Shown: in pieces, positions 8,412-49,700 of the stretch | Layout: each line of letters starts with the position of its first letter | Position numbering within the stretch: the stretch's first letter is position 1 | DNA from: Dioscorea cayenensis subsp. rotundata | Lineage: Eukaryota > Streptophyta > Magnoliopsida > Dioscoreales > Dioscoreaceae | Assembly: GCF_009730915.1 (NCBI RefSeq) | Contig: NC_052480.1 | Span: 3,596,001-3,660,000, forward strand | DNA: 64,000 nt | Direction: 5' to 3' | Program-made: the position numbers and the translations under genes | Notes under the pieces: generated by a model | What the model saw: the letters and a program-made list of their open reading frames with translations, nothing else | Told to the model about the DNA's origin: nothing | Databases searched by the model: none

Positions 8412-10085
8412 AAAACATTTACTGCACTTGAGAAAAAAAATTAAAAAATTAACACAGACATTACATGTTAGAGATCGATGCTTATTCATCATTAATATTT
8501 ACTGTATTCTGGAAATAAAATTCAGATCATACACTTCTCTTTCTAATTTAGAAACAAATTGATGACGGGAGCATAAACGACGTGGCATATGCGTACATGG
8601 AGAAGTACGACGCAAGGGCATTTCAGTAATTTGGCGGGTGACTTTTATGGTTGTACCGGGTCTATTTGATGGGAAATGGGTCAAGGAACAAAAATCGTGA
8701 GTCATACCAAAATTTGACCAAATTCCATCTCCTCGAAAACCCTAATTTTGCTATTTTTAGTAATGATTGATTTCGTTATATTTTATGATAGAAATCTCTT
8801 ATTTGTGAGCCGTTTGTGGCAATAGTCTTTATTTTTATAGATCTTTTATTTCTTGCTTTGAGAATTTACTGTTTTTGGTAAATTTTTGAATTATCTCCTT
8901 TCTTAGTGTTATTTTCGCCTATTTAATGTAAGCCTATGGGCAAGAGTAAATCAGTTTTCTTATCACTATTTTCTTGAGTTATAAGATTTTACTCTTCCCA
9001 AATTCCTGGCTATCTTTGATCAACAAGATTTGAACAAGTTGTTACCGGGCATTCGAAGGCGAATCAACGGTATCGAGTATACCGCTGCATCACAAATTCT
9101 ATCTCAATTTAAATCTATAATTTATAAAATATTTAGTTATGATAATATTTGAAATATTTAAACCAAGCTTCCCAAATTCTTGGCTCTCAGTTCTCAAATA
9201 TATCCTATCCCCTCCCCCTCTCCAAACCCTCATTCTTACTCCAATCTCTATTTAACAGTTTTGTTGATCCTTTTCCATTTCATTTAATGGCTTACGAATT
9301 TGGTGTTAGAGGCTTATCAAAAACATTTAATTGAGTATATATAATGGCATAAAGTAGATTATGTAATCATATTAAAATTTAGTCCATCTTACAGAGTTCC
9401 AGTAATACATTCGCTTAAATTTGAGTTTTGCTTGAGTTCTATAAAATTACGTTATGATGAGTAAACAGATACCATATTTAAAATAAAAAGTATGAATTAG
9501 ATTAATCTTAAAATAAAGAAAATGCACAAGAAGATGTTTTCTTATGACATTTTCATTTTTTCAGGGTTTTTTCTTTGTATTTAGATGACTATATATTTTT
9601 CTATTTTGTTTTGAAAGGTCCCCGGCTAGTCAACCTCATGCTATATATATGTATATATATTTAAACATAAGTTTTCCAGTTGGGCGGAAAATTGATGAGA
9701 TGCTCATGAAAAATCATATGGGCCCAAAAAAGAGACTTCCAAAAAAATTATTAGAGTTCCATGAGTTAAGGTTTTAGACGTACATGAAAACATTTTTGTT
9801 TTTTCACACGATCACAAAAGCTAATTTCTTATAAATATAACAAATATATGATTAGAATAAAAAAATTATCAAATAAAATTTCCCAACAACTAGACATTCA
9901 GTACTTTATTAAAGAAATCATAACTCAAACAACAACTGGGGCTCGCAATTTTCAACATGTACATCTAGTTTATTTATTCATTAATATCACTTAATTTGAG
10001 TCACACACACATTCATATTATTCCACAGTGACTTATTATAAGATGCATGCATGCATGGATGAACTTATTATAAAACTATATATAA
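8412..10085. other. Intergenic; left arm of the chitinase duplication starts near 9255
   Basis: No supported gene. From about 9255 onward the sequence is clearly similar to 19855 onward, so this is 3' flank shared by both chitinase copies: matching blocks include GTTGATCC, CAAAAACATTTAATT and AGTAAACAGATACCATATTT. 8412-9250 has no recognised content. Confidence 0.6.
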
Positions 10086-11888
10086 TTAACGTCCTAAATA
10101 ACAAGTGAGATAATCTCCGGGAGACACACCAAGCTGCTTGCAATAGTCTTTATAGTACCCCACACGAGCATTCATTTGGTTTGGGTGTTTGCCGTCACAC
10201 TCATGGCTATTGATAATTCTGGTGGTGGCTCCAAAGCCCTGGCCGGAAGTTATGGCATTGTGCACCCCGTTAACATCCCAAAACCACAAAGCAGCCTTGA
10301 AGGATATGACATTGTCATTGGCAACAGTCTCCGGGGAGTTCAGGCCGTCGAAGCCGATAGCCTGGCTGGCCGGGATGTAGTTGTAGTTCCAAGTCAGCTG
10401 AAGTGGGCCACGACCGAAGTAATTCTTATCAGGATTGCATGGATATTTATGGCTAGCCTGGCAATACTTTCTCTTTGCTATTTCTTCAATGTAGCAGAAA
10501 TCTGTAAACCAGAACAAACAACAGGATCACCACTTCTTCAGAATATCTTCAAATTAACTAGGTATCTACTTGTTTATTTTAGATATACTATGTATATATA
10601 GATATTATCTTAAAATATTCGGCAAAGCATAGTATTTTTTTTTTTCTATCCCCAAAAACATTAATTTATTTCATATGAGAAATCTTTATGGAAGAAAGAA
10701 AAATTACATGAAAACTCAGTCATGTGTAAATATTATACAGATGAGACTATAAGCATTTAATTATACTCAGGACTTAAGTTAATTTCAGAAGTCTATGACA
10801 CCTGCTGGTCAACCAGCCAGTACATAGAGTCAGTTTTATTAAACCATGCATGATGCACTTCATTTTCTATCCAACCTAATTAAAAGTTTGAACCTACTTC
10901 AAGTCAACAAATTAAGATTGCTCACTAAAAAACGCATTCAAAGATGGATGCATCATGCATGCATGAAAAATTGGTTGAAAGTTAGTTAAACAATATATAA
11001 AGGAACCTACGTACGTCCAGTCTCATGGGTGACTTGAGCGAAGAAAGCAGCGATTTCCCTCTTCTTGACATCGTTGTTGCCGGTGGTGCCAAAGTCCGGG
11101 AACGACCCAGCAGCAGAAAGGAACGCATTGCGAGTATAGAATCCCTTCCCGGCGCAACCAACCCCAGCCTTAGAAGCAATTCCGTCAAAGAAAGCCGGAG
11201 TTACAATATCACCAACAGTTCCACCTCCGCCTCCACCGTGTCCACCTCCGCCTCCACCGTGTCCACCTCCGACTCCACCGTCTCCACCTCCGTCTCCACC
11301 GTCTCCACCTCCGTCTCCTCCGTCTCCACCGTCTCCACTTCCATCTCCACCATCTCCATCGTCTCCACCGTCTCCGTTTCCGTCTCCGTTTCCGTCTCCA
11401 CCATCTCCATCATCTCCACCGTCTCCACCGTCTCCACTTCCGTCTCCACCTCCGTCTCCACCATCTCCATCGTCTCCACCGTCTCCACCTCCGTCTCCAC
11501 TTCCGTCTCCACCGTCTCCACCTCCCTCTCCACCATCTCCATCGTCTCCACCGTCTCCACCTCCGTCTCCACTTCCGTCTCCGCCTCCGTCTCCACTTCC
11601 GTCTCCACCTCCGTCTCCACCTCCGTCTCCACCGTCTCCACCACCTTCTCCATCGTCTCCACCTCCGTCTCCGTAGTCTTGAACTCGGTCTCCACCGTCA
11701 TTATTGCCAAAGCAAGGCCCTTGTTTACACCCTTTGCCGCAGAAGTCGTTGCCGCTGCCACAGTAACCCCACTGGCTGCAGCACAGGTCTGAGCTGCAGC
11801 CGCAGTCTTGAGCTTCAGCCAAGAGTCCGATGAGGCCGGAGAGAGCTCCGGCAATGAGAAGAGCTTGAAGGAGACTAAAGAACTGCAT
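10086..11888 (-). CDS. Class IV chitinase (GH19) with giant Gly/Asp hinge
   Basis: Endochitinase predicted to be secreted and to cut beta-1,4-N-acetylglucosamine chains of fungal walls. Two exons: 11888-11015 and 10501-10086, joined GGAC|GTACGT..TTACAG|AT, giving 429 residues. Residues 1-27 are a signal peptide. Residues 28-60 are a hevein-type chitin-binding domain with 8 Cys (CCSQWGYCGSG). Residues 61-223 are a hinge made almost only of Gly and Asp. From about 224 comes the GH19 domain with HETGHFCYIEE; catalytic Glu are E289 and E297 or E298. Class IV hinges are normally about 10 residues, as in the sister gene at 20719-22575. Oddities: the loop after YIEE reads IAKRKYC, not INGANNNYC; the ancestral stop is lost, adding YLGR after the usual C-terminal LTC; and the TATA box is altered. 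The gene is open throughout, but its activity cannot be judged from sequence. Confidence 0.93.
11217..11680 (-). repeat. Coding minisatellite for the Gly/Asp hinge
   Basis: About 460 bp of tandem 6- and 9-bp words; on the minus strand GGAGACGGT/GGAGACGGA/GGTGGAGAC, in irregular order. Encodes GDGGDGGGDG-type peptide in the chitinase frame. Because the words lack stop codons, the other frames and the opposite strand are also open over this stretch (Val-Glu-Thr-rich and Ser-Thr-Val-rich); I regard those as shadows. Confidence 0.93.
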
Positions 11889-11934
11889 GGCTTGATAGTT
11901 TTCTTTGTGTTGGATTTCAAGATAAATGAGAGGC

Positions 11935-11942
11935 TATTTGTA
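11935..11942 (-). promoter_or_regulatory. Altered TATA box of chitinase copy 1
   Basis: At the position where the sister gene has TATAAATA (about 50 bp upstream of the start codon), this copy has TACAAATA. The third-copy relic near 17290 has the same form. Initiation may be weaker; this is inference. Confidence 0.5.
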
Positions 11943-11949
11943 GATGAGA

Positions 11950-13032
11950 AACTAAAATTTCTTGTATGTGTAATCTTTTAACTTTCTTTACTGATTCATG
12001 ATTGGAATTTGATGGCTTGTTTATACTACACCATTATCGATCAAAGAAGAGGGCCCTATATTCCATCATGATGTAAGTCCAATATCTAAAGTATGTCTGA
12101 TCTTTCATAGTGGAACAAAATTTTCATCATAGATATTTGCTTCTTTTTCACCGTATGTGTCACGCCAAGGCCCTGCTCGCCGGACCTGGTACGCTGACAA
12201 GTGGTTGACACACCTACAACACAGAACACAGTAGGCAGACAATGGCTCAAAACCTATCTCAGAGTGGAGCTTATAAAGTATTTGAACTTCAAATTTCAAA
12301 AATCATAAATTCAAAATATACAAAATTTACAAAAATACAAATCCCAGAGTTTATTATGCTAACAAAAAAATAATTAGAGCTGAAAATTAACAATCTGATT
12401 ATGAGTTTGACAACTAGTAACAATCTGATTATTAACAATCTCCCAATTACTATAGGTAAAATAAAATATCACTATATCAAAGAACATTTGTTTAAGCTCG
12501 GTGATCCTAGCCAGATTTTCAGAGATCATTTTTTTACCTTCCATAACCTGAGTCAGAATATCATTAATCGTTGTTCTTTCACTGATGGCACAGTACAAAA
12601 TTATAGTCTCTTATTATAGTTTCATTTTGACATGGCCAATGTTTAACCACCTCAGTGATAGGATTAATGGCTAGTTAATTGGAGACTAAATGCATTTATG
12701 TTAAAATAACTTTATTATCCAAAAATCAAGCAAAATTTTAGAATTTCAAACAGGCTAAAATTTATAGAATAACTTATTAAGCAAACATACTAATAAACGG
12801 AGGATCTCATTTTTAATAGTAAAAATAATTTATTTATATCCAAAACCATTTACAAACATAATAGTTTCATCATTAATAAATATAATCAAAATGTGTCTGG
12901 TGATGTTTCAATGAAAAAATAATAATGAAGAAGTTAATAATTTTATTGTATGAATAGATTTTTTAAAAAAACTAAAACAATTAAATACTTATGTAAATGA
13001 TTATCAGTACTTTTACAGATTATCAGTAATAA

Positions 13033-19776: not shown

Positions 19777-20718
19777 TTATATATATATTTGTTGCGTAGA
19801 TTTACGGACCTAATTGACATGGTGGTTAATCACCAATCTCTGCTTGATATATACCAGTATTGTTGATCCTTGTCATTTCATTTCATCCCTTAGTAATTTG
19901 GTGTCAGATGTTTGTCAAAAACATTTAATTAAGTATATATATATAATGCCATGAACTAAATTACGTTTATCATATTAAATTTTAGTCTATCTTCTAGTAG
20001 TACGTTAGCTTAAATTTGAGTATTGTGCGAGTTCTCTAAAATTAGGTTATGATGAGTAAACAGATACCATATTTAAAAATATAAACAGTATGAATTAATC
20101 AGATTAATCTTAAAATAAAGTTTATACAGAAGAAGATGTTTTCTTATGTGCTTTTCATCTTTTAGTGAGGGTTTTTATTTGTATTTATATGACTATATAT
20201 ATTTTTCTATTTTGTTTTGAAAGGTCCCAAATCAACCTCATGCTATATAGCCTATATGTATATTTCTAAAGATAAGTTTTTTAATGCTGAAAATTGATGA
20301 GATGCTCAAGAAACAGACATGTGGACCAAAAAAAGGTCTTGCACAAAAATTATTAGAGTTCCATGAATTAAAGGTTTTTAGACGTACATGGAAACATTTT
20401 TGTTTTTTCACCTACGATCACAAAAGCTAATTTCTTATATACATCCATAACAATTAATTATGATTAGAATAAAAAAAATATCAAATAAAATTTCCCAACA
20501 ACTCAACAATTCAGTACTTTATTAAAAAAATCATAACTCAAACGACAACTAGGGCTCGCAATTTTCAACATGCACATCCAATTTTATTTATTCATTAATA
20601 GTACTTGATTAATTTGAGCCACACACAAACATTCATATTATTCCACAGTTATTTATTATAAGTTGCATGCATGCATGGATGGATGCACTTAATTATAAAA
20701 CTATAATTAACGTTCTAA
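19777..20718. other. 3' flank of chitinase copy 2
   Basis: No gene. From about 19855 it is homologous to 9255 onward, marking the duplicated unit; AT-rich otherwise. Confidence 0.6.
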
Positions 20719-22575
20719 TTAACAAGTGAGATTATCTCCAGGAGATACACCAAGCTGGTTGCAATAGTCTTGATAATACCCCACACGAGCATTCATCTGG
20801 TCTGGGTTGTGGCCGTCACACTCAAGAGCTCCATTGATGATTCTGATGGTGGCTCCAAAGCCCTGGCCGGAAGTTATGGCATTATGCACCCCTCTATCAG
20901 TCCAAAACCACAAAGCACTCTTGAAGGATTTGACCTTGTCATTGGCCACCGTCTCCGGCGAGTTCAGGCCGTCGAAACCGATAGCCTGGCCGCAGGGGAT
21001 GTAGTTGTAGTTCCAGGACAACTGAAGTGGGCCACGACCGAAGTACTTCTTGTCAGGATTGCATGGATATTGTTGGCTGGCCTGGCAATAGTTATTGTTT
21101 GCTCCGTTTATTTCTTCAATGTAGCAGAAGTCTGTGAACCAGAACAAACAACAGTCAGTACTTTTCTTTGGAATATATATCTTCATTTTGCTCATCTACT
21201 TCTTTAATTTAGATAAACTGTAAAGATATATAAATTTCACTTAAGTTTTAGGATTTATTTGGATGAAGGATTTTGAAGGTAAAATAAGGGAAGGGTTTTT
21301 AAAAACCCATGCTTGAGTAGGAGGTTTTAGGGGAAGGTAAGGATTGAGAGGGGTTAATGGAGGTTTCAAAACCTCCACTTTTCTCTCATTTCTCAACCCG
21401 TCCAAATTGGAGGTTGGAGAGGTTTTGGGTACCAATATTTTTTTATTGAACAAAATGCCCATATTCATTTATAAAAATTACAAGATATTTGATTAATTAA
21501 TAATATAATACTATTAATTAGTATTATTATATTATTTAATTATACTAATTAATATTGTTATATTAATTAATATCATTATTAATATTATTATATCAATTAA
21601 TATTATTAATAATATTATTAATTATAATAATTATTAGATTAATTATATTAGTTAATATTATTATATTATTTAATTATATTAATCAATAATGATAATATAA
21701 TAATAATGTTTATATTAGTTATCATTATAATATTAACTAATATAATTAATATAATATTATTTATATTAGTTTTTTTTTCTTTCCCAAAAACATTTATTTC
21801 ATAAACGAGATATTTATAGAGGAGAGAAGTTTCATGCATGAAAACCCATGCATGGTAAATATATAGATCTGAGACGTACTCAAAGATATATAAGCATTTA
21901 ATTAACTATACTGGGCACAGAAGTTATTTTCACTAGTCTATGACATATATATTCAAATTTTTCCACCTGGTCGATCAACTAGCAAATGGAGTCAGTTTTA
22001 ATTATTTATCAAAATGCACTTCATTTTCTATCCATAAGCTAATTAAAGTTTTAACGTACTTAAAGTCAACCAAAACTCCTCAATAATAAACACATTCAAA
22101 GATGCATCCATGCATGAAAAGTACGTAGAAAATTAGTTAGCAATCTATAAATGAACCTACGTCCAGTCTCATGGGTGGCATGAGCGAAGAAAGCAGCGAT
22201 CTCCCTCTTCTTGACATCGTCGCTGCCTGTGTTGCCAAAGTCCGGGAACGACACAGCAGCCGAAAGGAACGCATCGCGAGTATAGAATCCCTTCCCGGCA
22301 CAACCGTCCGCTGCCTGAGACGCAATTCCGTCAAAGAACGCCGTAGTTACAATATCATCAACAGCTCCACCTCCACCCCCACCGCCGTTATTGCCAAAGC
22401 AAGGCCCTTGTTGACACCCTTCGCCGCAGTACTCGTTGCCGCTGCCACAGTAACCGTACTGGCTGCAGCACAGGTCTGAGCTGCAGCCGCAGTTTTGAGC
22501 TACGATGAAGCGGCCGAGGAGACCGGAGAGAGCTCCGGCGATGAGAAGAGCTTGAAGGAGACTAAACTGCTGCAT
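20719..22575 (-). CDS. Class IV chitinase (GH19), normal short hinge
   Basis: Secreted endochitinase of the plant-defence type. Two exons, 22575-22161 and 21131-20719, joined GGAC|GTAGGT..TTCACAG|AC, encode 275 residues. 1-27 signal peptide ([15 protein letters not shown] core); 28-60 hevein-type chitin-binding domain with 8 Cys; 61-70 hinge GNNGGGGGGG; from 71 the GH19 domain. The catalytic centre [15 protein letters not shown] is canonical, with E136 and the second Glu in YIEE (144/145). [20 protein letters not shown] and NARVGYY match the family, and the protein ends at LTC. A TATA box sits at 22623-22630. It lies about 10.6 kb from copy 1 on the same strand, with duplicated flanks. The intron (21132-22160) is about twice the length of the copy 1 intron because of an insertion. 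Confidence 0.95.
21238..21775. mobile_element. Insertion in the intron of chitinase copy 2
   Basis: About 540 bp absent from the corresponding intron of copy 1: the flanks align (TATCCCCAAAAACATT in copy 1, TTTCCCAAAAACATTT in copy 2). First half has GGATTTATTTGGATGAAGG-like text; second half (21490-21770) is nearly pure A/T with many inverted TTAATAT words. Family unknown and ends not precisely set. Confidence 0.5.
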
Positions 22576-22622
22576 GGCTTGTAGTTCTTAATTTGTGTTG
22601 AATTTCAGGATAAATGAGTGGG

Positions 22623-22630
22623 TATTTATA
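22623..22630 (-). promoter_or_regulatory. TATA box of chitinase copy 2
   Basis: TATAAATA on the minus strand, 48-55 bp upstream of the start codon, followed by a short leader. Confidence 0.7.
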
Positions 22631-22639
22631 GATGGGAAA

Positions 22640-23654
22640 TTAATGAAATTTCTTGTGCACGTACTCTTAATTTGATCTTTCTTTGTTGATTCATGATTTG
22701 ATCAGTTGATCAAACTGGAAGGTTTAATTTAATACTGTCCTTTATTGATTCAGTTGGGGCAGTTAAGAACACGGTCTTGGAATTTGATGACTTGTTGAAT
22801 AATACAACTTGTTTGACAATTTAAATGAATTGTTTTCTAAATTAGCTGCAATTATTGATCAAAGAAAGACGACCCTATCTTCTTATCAAATAAAGATAAA
22901 TGTTTTTTTACATACATGACAAGCGCTATCAGCGGTGCACGCACGGATCAAAAATTAAACATCTAGCATATGCATCTTTACCCAACGACATAGAGAGTGA
23001 GTTTGTAAACCCACACCAACAATCGAGACTCATTACCACATCATTACATTTAACAGACTTAAACTCAAGATTTTTTAAATGATTTGCACCACTTCCTTTC
23101 TATCATACCCTTTGGCAAGTAAAATCAATTATATCTAAATTATGTTTGTCTTTTCATGGCGTAACAAAATTTTCATCACATTTACTTATTTTTCCTCATA
23201 AGATTTCTCTAATGGATGTTGCGAAACTCTTCAATCAGCGCATGCAAAGCTTCTCTGAAGTCCTCTAATTCTACACTAGAAATCCACTCCAAATTCAATC
23301 AATTTTTTCCAGTTTTGATCAAACTAAAATATGTTCTTATGATTAGTCTAATTTTTTTATTATTATCTGAAATATGTTTTCATATTAGTTTTTTTTTAAA
23401 GTTTTTCAGTGGAGCTCAGCCTATCATTTTTATAAATATATATATATATATTTCGTGATGTTAATTTATTTTTGGATACAAATGTTGAGTTTTTATATAA
23501 ATGTTTGTCAATTTTATTGTTATTAACATATTTATGAATTTTTCTTAGTGCTTATAAATACTATGTGTATGACTATTATATTTATTGATGTTAATTTATA
23601 GTTAAAAATATGAAAATCATTGAGGAAATTATATTTATTGAATTCTAAATTATT
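22640..23654. other. Chitinase 5' flank and spacer
   Basis: 22640-23230 is the upstream region of copy 2 and shares blocks with 11950-12150 and 17221-17262. 23230-23654 is AT-rich without recognised content. Confidence 0.55.
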
Positions 23655-25442
23655 GCTAGGTCGGAGGACCTTAGAATTATTAAGTTAATCCTTTTTATCT
23701 TCGAAGGTATCTCTGGCTTGGCTATTAACCACAATAAAACAAGTTTGCTCTTTACCGGTCTTAACTCCTTGCCCAGCCATTCTGCTCTAGCCACTCTGAA
23801 TTGTGCTGATAGCGCTCTCCCGTTCACTTACCTGGGTGTCCCGATTGCTGGTCAAAGGCCGCGTAGACAAGACTGGGAGGTTCTTATTCTCAAAGTTAAA
23901 TCAAGGCTTACCTCTTGGAAGGCGAACTTCCTGTCTCTTGGGGACAGGCTCACCCTTATTAACTCTGTCCTTACTGCCTTGCCACGTACTGGGTGTCGAT
24001 CTTCCGTCTGCCTAAGTGGGTAGTCAACTGTATTAACCGACTTAGAAGAGATTTTCTTTGGAGAGGCCTTGATATTGACTGGCCCAGATGTCGCTTGGTC
24101 AATTGGCATAGGTTGTGCCTTCCCCGTGACCAAGGTCGCTGGGTATCATTAACCTTGAGGAATTCAATTGTGCTCTTCTTGGGAAATGGTGGTGGAAAGT
24201 TTTGAAGGACGATTCGTGGTGTGGTTTGGCTCCTGACCTTTTTAACTACTTCCGTCAGCACCCTAGGTGGAACCTCTGGTTACCCCGCAACCGTCGTTGC
24301 TCCTTCTTCTGGAAAGGCCTCTTCCCATCACTGGAGGCTTTTAAAGCATGTATTCACTCCTCTGTTGGGAACGGTAACTCCATGCTTTTCTGGTTAGATA
24401 ATTGGTATAACTGGAAAGCTCCTAAATCCCGCTGGTGGGAAGATTTCCTTTCGACTACTTCCTCATTCGCGACGATTAGGGATATGCTCTTGGACTTTCC
24501 CTCTGCTGCTATGAGGGGAGATCCTCTCTTGAATGAGAGCTCCAAAATCACCTCTGTGATTGGGGATATTCCGGATCATAAAACTTGGAAGTTAACTTCT
24601 GATGGATCTTTCTCGATGAAGTCTTTCTATAAATTCCTTATCGACAGGGGGTTGAGATATAGTATCACCCTGGTGATCTTCAAGCGTTTCGTTCCACGGA
24701 AAATAGTTGTTTTCACATGGATGGTCTGGGACAGGAAGATTCTCACGCTTGACACCCTTTTCGCCGGTAGATGCAACAAACTCCCTACGTCAACCTGCTT
24801 TCTGTGTTGCTCTGATATTGAGTTGATTGATCACCTATTTTTCAGGTGCCCTATGGCTAAAGACATCTGGGACCACCTTGCTCTCCTTTTTTCTTTCTCA
24901 CGTGCCCCCTTGTCCTGCTTGGACTTATGGGGACCGTGGTATCTAGAGCTTAGCCCTTGTCTCAAACTGTCCTGCTCTTTGGTTGTGAGAGTGGTTTTGT
25001 GGCAAATTTGGCTTGCTAGAAATAACTTTGTTTTCAGTTCTGTGTTTATTTCTTTGCCTTCTTTATTTCTGAAAATTTATTACATGTACCTCTCTTGGAT
25101 TATAGTGGTTCTGGCTAGAGAGATGCTCAAGCTTGAGGAGTCTATTACTGCGGTTCGGCGATGTATCCAGTTTTCGAGCCTCCCATGTGAGGAGCTGGAT
25201 CTCGACAGACACGACGAGTTTTCCGGCTAGTTGTTCTCCTGATATGCTGCTGTGTCTTGGAGGAGTCCCTCTCTCCCCCTTCTTGTGTATCAGTGTGCTG
25301 CCTTGTCTCCTAGTGTTTGTTACCCTTGTTGTGTGCTTTTGTTTCCACTTCTAGTAGAGTTGTCTGTTTTATTATTTTTGTACTTTTTCTTCTTCTAATG
25401 CAAGTGTGGTTTATCCACTTTAAAAAAAAAGAAAAAAAAAAT
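23655..25442 (+). mobile_element. 5'-truncated L1-type LINE with poly(A)
   Basis: Starts within the reverse transcriptase (GISGLAINHNKTSLLFTG, then FTYLGVPIAGQRPRRQDWE), passes through the thumb/connection region (WVVNCINRLRRDFLWRGLD) and ends with the zinc-knuckle zf-RVT domain near 24700-24860 (PRKIVVFTWMVWDRKI, CFLCCSDIELIDHLFFRCP). The last frame ends at a stop at 25228-25230, followed by a 3' UTR and an A-rich tail to about 25442. Two frame shifts, near 23990-24000 and 24150-24200, break the ORF, so the copy is dead. Missing the endonuclease and most of the RT palm. No clear target duplication seen. Confidence 0.88.
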
Positions 25443-43769: not shown

Positions 43770-46700
43770 ATGGATGGGAGAGGGGATGCGTCGGCGATCA
43801 GGCCGCTGCGGACTAGTGACCGACTGCGGCAGCGGAGGAAGCTGTTTGGAAGGAGGTTTATGTACTACAAGCCAGCGATGCGGAAGAAGCCCAAGACAAA
43901 GACCCGCACCGCTGCCTCTCAGATTGCCAAGCTCCTCCGGCCCCGCAACCGGCCTGTGCGGCCTCCCCCTTCGGATGTATGTGCTTTATTTTCTTCGTCT
44001 CTGCGATTTCTTATTGATTTTTTTTTTCGTGAATGAAGTGTTTTTCTTTTAGTTGGCAGTGATTGCTTTCTGTTTGAAGGATTAGAAGATTTTTAGGTGT
44101 TTGTGTTATAAAACAGTGTTGCATGTTTATTGTTGTTGTATTGTCTGAATATCATCTTTGGACACTTTTATTGCATCTAGGTTGATGAATTCACCATATT
44201 GATCCTTTATGTTTGAGTACTTTGAGGAATGACTGATTCTATGTGTTGGCAATTTCCACATGGTGGAACACTATGGTCATGTTGATATCAATGTCTCAAA
44301 CTCTCTTGAGGATTAAGTTTGTTGTTAACCTTGGCAGTGCCAAGGAATTTGAAGGAACTCTTAACATACATTTTAATGGTTTATTATGTTGTTGGACTGC
44401 ACTTCACATATCCTATCTGCATTCTAAGTAAATGAACTACATCCAATCATACTCTTTCCATTTGTCGGTTATGTTGTTGGCTTTTGTTAGAATTATGTCT
44501 TCTCACTCAAATTTTTCAATACAAGAAAAGTAAGAAAAAAGAAGATATGAAAAATTTTATTTCCTAGCATGAATAAGTTAAATAGGTGACGGATAATATA
44601 CTGATAATTCGTTTTCCTCTATTCTTTCGTTTTCTCTTTATCTTTATCAATCACTCCCGACATCTCTGAGTACCGGCAAAACGACAAGCATTAAGCATGT
44701 ATTATTTATCATAAAAAAATCTTGTCAAAAGATTTTATGTAGAACATATAATAGACACGTGGCACGTGAGCACATTAGTGTGAGTAGTGGTTGGTTCTAC
44801 TGCAACAATGATGAGATATACCTGAGAGACCATAAAATTGACAAATCGAATCAACTGATGCTGAGTGTGCATCCTAAAAAATCATGCACAAAATTTTTAG
44901 TTGGTAACGAAACCCCCATTGTGTACTCTTTTGATATAGTTTTACGATATATTTTTTTTTTGGGTACAACAATTGGATAGGCAGCATATTTCCAAGTATG
45001 TGTTCTTTTCCTAAGCGTTCTTGGTAGTGTAGTCAATCATAAAAAAAAAACAATGAAAGTAATTTTAGCCAACTGCCTGTTTCTTGGATGCAAAATATAT
45101 TACTTATGAGCTGGTCTTATTGTTGAATCTTGTACACTGTTCTGCATCATCTTAGCGGGTATTGTGACCTGCAGAACAGAAAAGCTTTCTTGCTATGCCC
45201 ATTTTAGTTTGGCAAAAAGCTCACAATATGGCAACTTATTTTTAGGGCGTCTAATGGTTTTTATGATTTGTTATCTTCCAAATGCTGTGAACTCTCTACA
45301 CTTTGATATAGATGCACAATACAACTAAACAGGGGGCAACCTTCTCACTCAATTGGGGGGCATGGTACCATAAAGTTTTGGATACAGCCATTTGTTGCTT
45401 ATATAGTTGATCATCTTTTGAATTTAGCTCCAAAACACCCATTCCTGTACTTAACATATCTGAATTGTTTTACCCCTTTTTTGCAGTCAATAGCAGCCAA
45501 CCTCCGCCGTTCTACAAGAAAAAGGAAGATCTCAATTAATTTGGAAGACTATGACACAGACAGTTCTAGCTCGGAAGATGACGACTTAATGGTGAGATTT
45601 CATACTCTCCCACCATGGAATATTTGTGGAGGAGGTTAGTTATTAGCTTGTTTATGAGGAGCCTGAAGGATAATCTTTTTATTTTCATTGTTTTTTTTTT
45701 TCTGTAGAGCTGTTCTGTATATATTTTGAAACTAATGGCATTGCATCATTGGCAGAGACCTAAGTTTCGTTCTTCTAAACGAAAACCAGAAAACAATGCA
45801 AGTCATGATGAAATATCAAACTCTCCAAAGCGTAAAAAAATGTTGAACAAGTCTGCTCCTCGTCGTGAAGGGTTACGGCCTCGGCGTTCTGGCATCAGGG
45901 CAAGGGGTCAGCCATACCAAGAATCTGAAGATGAACAGGATAGTTCTGAGGGAAATGCAAGGCAAACTGAGGTAGAAAACGGGAATGAAGTTGAGGAGGA
46001 TGATGGGGATGAAGGAGATGAAGCTGAAGGTGATGGTGGAGATGAAGGAGAAGAAGATGGTGATGATGAAGATGGTGAGGAGCAAGGAAGGAGAAGATAT
46101 GATTTAAGAAACCGTGCAGAGGTCCGCAGATTTTTTCCGGAGAAAGAAGGGAAACAAAGACCACGATCCCCCCGTAGAGTACTGCACCAGGGCATGGGCT
46201 CCAAAAACGGCAAGGACCTAAGAAAGGGTGGACCTCGATTCCATAAGCGCCATCCTTTTACAAGACCTGAGGATTCTGATGACTCCCTTCTTGTGGATGA
46301 ACTAGATCAAGGTCCTGCAATGCCATGGGCAAGAAGTGGAAGTAGAAGTGGCCCTCCTTGGCTTTTTGGGGGAATGGATATGCATGGTACAACGACAACT
46401 GCATGGGGGTTAAATGTTGCTGCATCTGGGTGGGTCCATCAGGGCGATTCTTTCCCTTCTCTCACAGCTGGTGCTCAAACTGCTGGACCAAGCTCAAAAG
46501 GAGGGGCAGACATCCAGCCATTACAAGTTGATGAAAGTGTTAGTTTCAATGATATTGGAGGACTGTCAGAGTACATTGATGCATTAAAGGAAATGGTCTT
46601 CTTTCCTTTGCTTTATCCAGATTTTTTCTCAAATTATCACATCACTCCACCGAGAGGAGTTTTGCTTTGTGGCCCTCCTGGCACAGGAAAAACACTGATT

Positions 46701-49700
46701 GCTAGAGCATTGGCTTGCGCTGCTTCAAAAGCTGGTCAGAAGGTCAGTTTTTACATGCGAAAAGGAGCTGATGTTCTTAGCAAGTGGGTTGGTGAGGCAG
46801 AAAGGCAGCTAAAACTTCTGTTTGAAGAAGCGCAGAGGAATCAACCTTCTATTATCTTTTTTGATGAAATAGATGGTCTTGCTCCTGTTAGATCTAGCAA
46901 ACAAGAACAGATCCATAACTCAATAGTTTCAACTTTACTTGCTTTGATGGATGGTCTTGATTCTCGTGGGCAAGTTGTTCTGATAGGAGCAACTAATAGG
47001 ATTGATGCTATTGATGGAGCTCTGCGCCGCCCTGGTCGGTTTGATCGAGAATTTATTTTTCCTTTACCAGGTTGTGAGGCACGTGCTGAAATATTAGATA
47101 TTCATACTCGCAAATGGAAGGAACCCCTTTCAAAAGATCTCAAGATGGAACTTGCTGCTAGTTGTGTCGGATATTGTGGAGCGGATCTGAAGGCATTGTG
47201 CACAGAAGCTGCTATCCGGGCTTTCCGAGAGAAGTATCCACAAGTGTACACTAGTGATGACAAGTTTGTGATTGATGTGGATTCCATTAAGGTCGAAAAG
47301 TACCATTTCTTAGAAGCCATGTCTACAATTACTCCAGCAGCTCATAGAGGATCTATTGTGCACTCAAGGCCGCTATCTCCGATCCTCTCTTCATGTTTGA
47401 AAGGACATCTGATGAAAATCATGGGACACATATCTGACATATTTCCTTACCATTCAGCTTCAGATACAAGCAAACTGGCTGTTCTTTCTTATTGTTCTGC
47501 TTTTCCTCTTGTCTACAGGCCTCGACTTTTGTTATGTGGCAATGAAACTGTTGGCTTGGTATGCTCCACTGAACCTTTTAGCTTGAGAATTTTACCAAAT
47601 GAATGTCAACCTGAAACTGTACTTACTGTGTAAGTTTTAACAGGATCATGTTGGTCCAGCTGTCCTGCATGAATTGGAGAAATTTCCAGTTCACTCTCTT
47701 GGGCTTCCATCTCTTCTTTCTGATCCTAGTGCAAAGACACCAGAAGAGGCTTTGGTACATATATTTGGTGAAGCTAGAAGGTCCACTCCCTCCATACTTT
47801 TCTTACCACAATTCCAGCTTTGGTGGGAAACTGTGAGTAATAATATGTGCAATATCCTTTAGCTCAGATGTCTTTTAAATTAATATTTAAAATTATGGTT
47901 TTCTATTTATCACTAAGTATAATTTTATCAAATTTCAGGCAAATGAGCAACTTAAATCTGTCTTGATGACACTTCTGGGTGAATTGCCATCTGACCTTCC
48001 TGTTCTGTTACTTGGAACATCCACATCACCTTCTACTGATTTGGATGAAGAGTCTGCTGCAATATTTGCCCCTCAGCATGTGTATGCTTTCGCAAACCTT
48101 CACTTCAATCAGTAGTTCTGACAAGGTTTTGCATTCTTTGAACTTTAGATGCACAATTTAGGCCAATATCATCAATCTAGAAGTTTCTGGACAAACATTC
48201 TGTATAGGGCTCATTCATTTTTGGTAGATAGTTTGTTTCTGTGCCAGTGCAACTGCTTTATAAAAGGTTTGGCCTCTGACAGACATTGGTTATTATATGA
48301 GAACTTACCCCTTTGAGGTGCAGATGCATCATAAATGACCAAGTTAGTTTTCATTGTCTTATTTCCTATGATTATAGAATCTGTGCTCTTGTATTAAACA
48401 AAAATTTCAAAGAACTAGAGAACTTACTTGGATCATGCCAATATCTTGATTAGAGGACTATTTTAGAGATTTATCTTTTTTCTAATTTTGGGAAATCTCT
48501 ATTTTTATTTCCTTATTTTTGACAAGAATTCTTTCTTTCAAGGATGATTTTGACTTACCTCCCTAGCTAAACTTTTGTTTCACAGGTATCAAGTTGAGAA
48601 ACCAACTAGGACAGACATGTTAAAGTTCTTTGAACAATTGGTGGAATCTGTTTTCTCTTTTCAACTTCAAGAATCAAGAAGTAATTCAAAAGAAAAGACA
48701 TCTCTACCAGAACTCCCAAAAGCACCAAAAGAGATAAGTGGTCCAAAACCATCCGAGATGAGGGCCAAAGCAGAAGCAGAGCAACATGCACTTCGGCGGT
48801 TGCGAATGTGCCTTCGGGATGTTTGTAACAGGTAAGGCGAATACCACCATAAGTTACAATGCCATTTATTCAATTTTAAACTTAAACCAGACCAATTGCA
48901 CAACTAGCCTCTTTTGGCTGAGTGATGATACCCTTGACTGTTTTTCGAATCTTTGGATTGGGGTAATTTTGCTATTATCAGAATATAGCTTATCAAGTCT
49001 TGGAGAACTGATGAAGGACATTACTTTCTGAAGAAAAACCTCTTCTTGCACACACATTTGCTGGTTGTATCAGACCCGAGTTACTCATTACCAAGTACTA
49101 GAAGCTGCTAGTTTTGCAGAATTGATTGAATGAAAAATTCTGATAAACAACGTCTTGAATACTGTAATCACTGTCCGCTCGTGTTATATTCACAATAAAA
49201 GACTGTAGTCCTTAACATGGTAGATACTGAAGCTGCCTCATATTTGCGATACAATGCAGCTTTTGCTGTCTTCAGTATGAAGGATTGACTTGCGTTGCAC
49301 CACAAAATTATAGGCGCCATTCTTTTGTGCATCATATAAGCATTAATATTATAGTCTGACATAACACATTCCAGCTTTCTGACATCATTTTACACCTTCA
49401 TCATTCTAAAGATTGTCTTTTCTAGCCTTCTGTGAGCAAAAGGGCAAACATCCATTTTTTCCTCCAGGCAAAACTAAGCCAGCAAAAGTGCCGTGGCTTT
49501 GTCTTTGGATTCAAGAAAAAATAAAGTTTAAGAGAAGCCTAATTTAGCTACTGTTTGCAGGATCTTATATGATAAACGGTTCAGTGTGTTCCATTATCCA
49601 GTCACTGATGAGGATGCCCCAAACTACCGGTCAATCATTCAGAATCCCATGGATATGGCTACTCTCTTGCAGCGTGTGGATTCTGGGCAGTACCTTACTT

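Follow-up and report, generated by a model that had tools for sequence, protein, structure and literature searches.

A Gly/Asp minisatellite in the hinge of a predicted class IV chitinase gene of Dioscorea cayenensis subsp. rotundata

How can the short hinge of a plant chitinase grow more than tenfold inside an open reading frame, and is the product useful or merely tolerated? The question is raised by two neighboring genes, here called copy 1 and copy 2, in a 64,000-nucleotide stretch of Dioscorea cayenensis subsp. rotundata DNA (hereafter, the window), which corresponds to contig C10:3596001-3660000 in a genome of 584 Mb. Copy 1 carries a hinge of 160 residues, nearly all Gly and Asp (residues 64 to 223; window positions 11220 to 11699, minus strand), encoded by 480 nucleotides of 9- and 12-bp units. 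In copy 2, translation places the hinge GNNGGGGGGG at residues 61 to 70 (22366 to 22395, minus strand), exactly as a first-pass annotation of the window had stated. The same annotation had set the copy 1 hinge at residues 61 to 223 (11217 to 11680); its Gly/Asp tract is present, but the limits had to be moved, residues 61 to 63 being GNN. The account that we favor, with modest confidence, is in-frame expansion of a minisatellite in a permissive linker of a weakly constrained duplicate, with the resulting arm tolerated and without a selected task.

The hinge of copy 1 comprises 100 Gly, 44 Asp, and 5 Ser, with two each of Val, Glu, Asn, and His and one each of Arg, Gln, and Tyr. Its computed net charge at pH 7 is about -45, and the earlier description of an acidic, low-complexity arm stands; for the whole protein the computed isoelectric point is 4.05, apparently the floor value of the program. 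Residues 73 to 223 are limited to Gly, Asp, Ser, Glu, Asn, His, and a single Val, with no Lys, Arg, Pro, or aromatic residue. The final 20 residues of the hinge contain only Gly, two His, and one Val, and this Asp-free end resembles the plain Gly hinge of copy 2. Fifty Gly runs were counted in the arm (20 of one residue, 16 of two, 12 of three, and 2 of six). The densest 40-residue stretch of exon 1 holds 38 Gly plus Asp residues, compared to a maximum of 19 over 300 base shuffles of that exon. The longest exact internal DNA repeat of the array is 56 nucleotides; over 200 codon shuffles it never exceeded 30.

Tandem words of 6 and 9 bp had been proposed as the source of the tract. The spacings of the 37 GGAGAY words, all of which lie in the coding phase, correct this to units of 9 and 12 bp (9 bp 17 times, 12 bp 16 times, and 21 bp three times) within longer duplications (best lags 21, 111, 51, and 72). 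Because the array contains an exact internal duplication of 56 nucleotides, length instability is plausible, with one assembled haplotype examined. A genome search with a 27-base array word, allowing up to two mismatches, listed 20 matches, counts that are lower bounds: all eight with zero or one mismatch lie inside the array, as does one of the 12 with two mismatches, the other 11 being elsewhere in the genome. The hinge matches nothing in Pfam or among solved chains at E values up to 10, which is a weak test because search programs handle low-complexity sequence cautiously. RNA folding of the array is unremarkable (z -1.23; 11 of 100 shuffles fold equally well or better). We regard the hinge as a Gly/Asp linker with no expected fold. 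An open frame across such an array is in itself weak evidence, since of the other two frames on the sense strand one is open there as well.

What kind of gene carries this arm? Copy 1 is a complete two-exon gene on the minus strand that encodes 429 residues without a stop codon or frameshift, in agreement with the earlier claim that the tract lies in an open frame. Exon 1 (11015 to 11888) was delimited by its frame, by a donor site at which a final C precedes GTACGT, and by matches to PF00187 and PF00182; it encodes a putative signal peptide, a hevein-type chitin-binding domain, the hinge, and the start of the GH19 catalytic domain. The signal peptide (residues 1 to 26; 11811 to 11888) was judged by eye from a hydrophobic N terminus ending in AEA, with QDC following. 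The hevein domain (residues 27 to 60; 11709 to 11810) passes the PF00187 cutoff narrowly (28.0 bits against 27.8, over residues 30 to 59). A single intron of 513 nucleotides (10502 to 11014; 70% A+T) runs from GT to AG (GTACGTAG...GTTTACAG), and its removal joins C to AT, restoring the His of HETGHFCYIEE. Exon 2 (10086 to 10501) encodes the remainder of the catalytic domain, which spans residues 231 to 425 (PF00182, 168.6 bits, E value 2.5e-49). The Glu residues of HETG and IEE are both present in the aligned copy 1 protein, and we take them to have catalytic roles.

With the hinge removed, the best solved matches of copy 1 are 4mck, 3hbd, and 5h7t, ahead of class I and class II structures; these and the Pfam domains agree with the class IV identity proposed in the first-pass annotation. 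The short-hinge trait of the class is absent from copy 1. A long hinge does not exclude class IV, because in the definitions cited here the class is set by domain order and catalytic-domain deletions, not by hinge length (PMC4451799). By its domains and structural matches, we classify copy 1 as a class IV GH19 chitinase.

The origin of copy 1 is clearest from comparison with copy 2, a class IV chitinase gene of 275 codons on the minus strand (20719 to 22575; exons 22161 to 22575 and 20719 to 21131), whose best solved matches are likewise 4mck, 3hbd, and 5h7t. The two neighborhoods share blocks that are 77 to 84% identical (9249 to 12006 and 19848 to 22701), and the two copies are sisters with 100% support among eight copies; on this sequence evidence, copy 1 arose by tandem duplication of a class IV GH19 chitinase gene. 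Divergence between them is 0.267 in the start of the intron, 0.369 in the 5' flank, and 0.091 in the 3' flank. In identity, the 3' flanks (9851 to 10085 and 20464 to 20718) reach 91.5%, the 5' flanks 71%, and the intron starts 78%. The high identity of the 3' flanks suggests either gene conversion or conservation of this 3' region.

A search of the genome for GH19 sequences found 13 places with a total of 31 exon-level matches; they include a cluster on C10 between 3.387 and 3.618 Mb. Eight of the 13 regions, those with an open class IV copy and a hevein domain, were modeled and entered the hinge count. The regions excluded were L012 and L021 (broken), L019 (no hevein match), and L020 and L022 (not class IV-like, judged by eye from tblastn). 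Under one rule, hinge lengths are 8, 8, 13, 17, 11, 10, and 14 residues in seven copies and 167 in copy 1. Copy 1 is thus the single long-hinge exception among eight paralogs. The premise of the first-pass annotation that class IV hinges are short and Gly-rich is sustained in part: copy 2 and the six other paralogs have short hinges, and among these, by eye, only copy 2, L014, and L015 have Gly-rich ones.

L016 was considered as a second long-hinge copy on account of its 364-residue open exon 1 frame and was rejected; its hinge has 10 residues, and the length of the frame comes from a thaumatin domain. This locus (G000:C10:3573500-3579500, minus strand) is on the contig of the window, some 18 kb ahead of it. 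The frame matches thaumatin/PR-5 PF00314 (E value 2.4e-60, residues 49 to 242, profile positions 1 to 209 of 209), and the thaumatin domain is followed directly by a hevein domain and by the beginning of a class IV GH19 domain, which gives L016 the appearance, at the level of sequence, of an in-frame PR-5/PR-3 fusion. Both broken regions are GH19 fragments. L021 (G000:C295:46000-50000) has 75 to 86% DNA identity to copies 1 and 2, with no hevein match and no GGAGAYGG word within the 4 kb examined, and L012 (G000:C10:3479500-3484000) contains stop codons.

Is copy 1 kept intact, or is it decaying? The 728 aligned noncoding bases of copies 1 and 2 contain 21 gaps, 18 of which are not multiples of 3, whereas the coding gaps of copy 1 relative to copy 2 are whole residues; therefore, the frame of copy 1 has been maintained through most of its history. 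Both of its splice sites are intact. In the core of the two proteins, the nonsynonymous divergence (dN) is 0.083 and the synonymous divergence (dS) 0.196, a ratio (w) of 0.42 (bootstrap 0.22 to 0.75).

Several features nevertheless suggest that constraint has slackened. For the hevein part alone, w between the two copies is 1.55 (37 codons; bootstrap 0.22 to 2.73, 334 of 500 resamples usable). At gap-free codons, the pair has a w of 0.53, compared to 0.11 to 0.26 for each copy against the other six paralogs. With three outgroup paralogs, residues unique to copy 1 outnumber those unique to copy 2 (14:7, 17:7, and 16:7), with silent changes at 6:6, 7:5, and 7:5. Copy 1 has nine lone departures from residues common to the other seven copies and copy 2 has three; copy 1 also lacks the NG just after the catalytic Glu that is common to the other seven copies. 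At the position of the TAA stop codon of copy 2, copy 1 has the Tyr codon TAT, and read-through adds the four-residue extension YLGR (10089 to 10100, minus strand). Upstream, TACAAATA (11935 to 11942, minus strand) stands at the TATA-box position, 54 bases before the start codon, and TATAAATA is found 39 to 75 bases before the start in copy 2, L013, L014, and L015; the TATA patterns searched had no match in L010, L011, or L016. From these sequence comparisons, constraint on copy 1 looks weakened, with some of the signs borderline or common to another paralog, and its transcription may be reduced.

A number of observations weigh against this interpretation. The pairs with w of 0.11 to 0.26 are old (dS 0.77 to 2.1), and the other young pair, L015 and L016, has a ratio of about 0.38 (dN 0.033, dS 0.088), so part of the excess in copies 1 and 2 may reflect their youth. 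The difference in relative rates is borderline (chi-square p about 0.13, 0.04, and 0.06). Lone departures are more numerous in L013 (10) and L014 (11) than in copy 1, L013 also has a C-terminal tail past the usual end, although of another sequence, and copy 1 has a further TATA-like word at -137. The array itself holds hints of protein-level constraint. Mismatches among its internally similar segments fall at codon positions 1, 2, and 3 in 35, 41, and 80 cases (of 156); its codon differences comprise 96 that change the amino acid and 48 that are silent, where the possible single changes number 1,001 and 367, plus 72 that give stops. Asp codons before G are GAT in 11 of 42 cases, and the mirror CpG change, which would give Arg or Ser, is absent. 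The third-position excess and the silent-only CpG decay thus hint at constraint on the arm, and the narrow residue set of positions 73 to 223 could also reflect selection. Because the units share descent and the copies are not independent, these patterns are hints and not tests; judged by eye, no more than about three of the C-to-T changes seem to be independent.

How, then, did the arm arise and persist? In our favored account, minisatellite-type slippage or unequal exchange would have lengthened a short tract of Gly codons in the copy 1 hinge, always by multiples of 3 bp, a process that we infer from the repeat anatomy. If expressed, the product would be a secreted, strongly acidic chitinase whose catalytic domain is tethered to the chitin-binding domain by a soluble, polyanionic, entropic chain with a contour length of about 58 nm and a radius of gyration estimated at 4 nm by a generic scaling law. 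Such a disordered arm could place the catalytic domain far from its anchor on chitin; the first-pass annotation had proposed altered reach, or binding of cations or cell-wall polymers, as possible effects. Most likely, the expansion would have persisted because the linker accepts almost any hydrophilic insert and copy 1 is under weakened constraint. Given that copy 1 is the sole exception of eight and shows signs of weakened constraint, a function for the arm should not be assumed.

One alternative, which we think unlikely, is that the Gly/Asp linker is itself under selection, in its leading version as an escape from fungal chitinase-modifying proteases. Polyglycine hydrolases cleave the poly-Gly linker of maize ChitA at Gly-Gly bonds (PMC9912923), and class IV chitinase hinges are named as a polyglycine hydrolase target (PMC4522555); for this reason, protease escape is the functional version of greatest interest. 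Interruption by Asp every few residues, together with the lack of Lys, Arg, and aromatic residues, would spare the linker, and its charge would hold it open. The Gly runs fit, 48 of 50 being three residues or shorter against the run of seven in copy 2, as does CpG decay confined to silent form; however, the C-terminal end of the arm retains two runs of six Gly, Gly-Gly bonds remain common, one copy of eight has the long hinge, and signs of weakened constraint occur elsewhere in copy 1. More doubtful still is the full proposal of a selected countermove to hinge-cutting fungal proteases, in which the minisatellite gives fast, reversible change, Asp interrupts the poly-Gly target, and the polyanion makes a protease-sparing tether. 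In other adaptive versions, the arm would bind Ca with low affinity or be drawn to the positively charged chitosan of hyphae. A compensating basic core was also considered, copy 1 having 17 positive and 6 negative charge changes relative to copy 2 (sign-permutation p 0.026), and was rejected once outgroups were added: solved class IV proteins have net charges of +5, +4, and -6, compared to +2 for copy 1 and -8 for copy 2, and the -1 of copy 1 among the eight paralog cores lies within their range of -13 to +11.

It is also improbable, in our estimation, that copy 1 is a dying gene, expressed little or not at all, with the expansion an early mark of decay. The TACAAATA word in place of TATAAATA, the read-through of the sister stop, the loss of NG, the borderline acceleration of protein change, a hevein domain that by itself shows no constraint against copy 2, and a core dN close to the 3' flank divergence are points in favor. 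Yet 429 codons carry no stop or frameshift, splicing signals are intact, and the core dN is below dS and below the divergence of the intron start and the 5' flank. In a neutral simulation of the 275-codon copy 2 (no indels, 2,000 runs), 27%, 7%, and 2% of runs kept an open frame when substitutions per site were set at 0.045, 0.09, and 0.13. We give very little credence to an assembly artifact or collapsed haplotype at the array, or to removal of the array from the transcript by splicing. Tandem arrays are known to give rise to length errors, but here the longest exact repeat is shorter than ordinary reads, the window contains no N, the locus lies within a 23.5-Mb contig, and the frame is preserved on both sides of the array. 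Exon 1 does contain 705 GT..AG pairs (390 in frame) that would delete at least half of the array. Against their use, the exon has no GTRAG donor, a weak criterion because the gene's own donor, GTACGT, also fails it, and T makes up 40% of the best candidate acceptor tract, compared to 50% in the real intron, and 11% of the array; splicing out of the array is unlikely.

Other observations concern the surroundings and distant relatives. Beside copy 2, open frames at 23649 to 25230 resemble, by eye, the end of a retrotransposon lacking long terminal repeats (non-LTR). Farther along the window, a long open frame (45708 to 47633) looks AAA ATPase-like by eye and includes an acidic Gly/Asp/Glu repeat tract at 45987 to 46071. 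A scan of prokaryote genomes for relatives returned one locus, matching the hevein part only: L001, at a scaffold end of Pectobacterium polonicum, where a hevein-like stretch near the contig end is 72% identical over 29 residues and could be contamination or a lateral gene.

With one hinge more than tenfold longer and polyanionic beside a sister with an ordinary hinge, copies 1 and 2 form a natural pair for testing the effects of linker length, charge, and Gly runs. The pair bears on chitin binding, antifungal action, and escape from proteases, class IV hinges being documented targets of fungal proteases (PMC9912923, PMC4522555). Copy 1 is a clear case of a coding minisatellite reshaping a domain linker after tandem duplication.

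Among known systems, the closest are the class IV GH19 chitinases maize ChitA and spruce Chia4-Pa, which likewise consist of a hevein domain, a hinge, and a loopless GH19 domain. Copy 1 differs from them in having a hinge of 160 Gly/Asp residues instead of about 10, a shorter loop after the catalytic Glu, and a four-residue tail. In the open-license literature searched, we recognized no class IV chitinase with a Gly/Asp polyanion as its hinge, a weak negative that does not imply that none is in print. The likeness to nacrein, a pearl oyster carbonic anhydrase, is a design analogy only; the enzyme is unrelated, and the Gly-X-Asn triplets of nacrein number zero in the copy 1 hinge. The Ca-binding nonapeptide motif of RTX proteins is GGxGxDx(hydrophobic)x; the hinge contains seven GGxGxD words, no full motif, and no Pfam match.

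Mulberry latex MLX56 also has a repeat tract alongside its hevein and chitinase-like parts, and the number of Ser-Pro repeats varies between Morus proteins (PMC5572373). In MLX56, the tract is of extensin type and lies between two hevein domains, and no chitinase activity is reported in that source. Copy 1 is of another type, with a single hevein match and no Pro in residues 73 to 223. The sugar beet proline-rich chitinase has a long proline-rich hinge. The Urtica dioica lectin with two carbohydrate-binding modules also has a proline-rich hinge (PMC8547705). In both proteins, as in copy 1, a low-complexity linker separates chitin-binding and GH19 domains; their Pro-rich hinges are likely stiff, whereas the Gly/Asp hinge of copy 1, in a class IV setting, is likely flexible and polyanionic.
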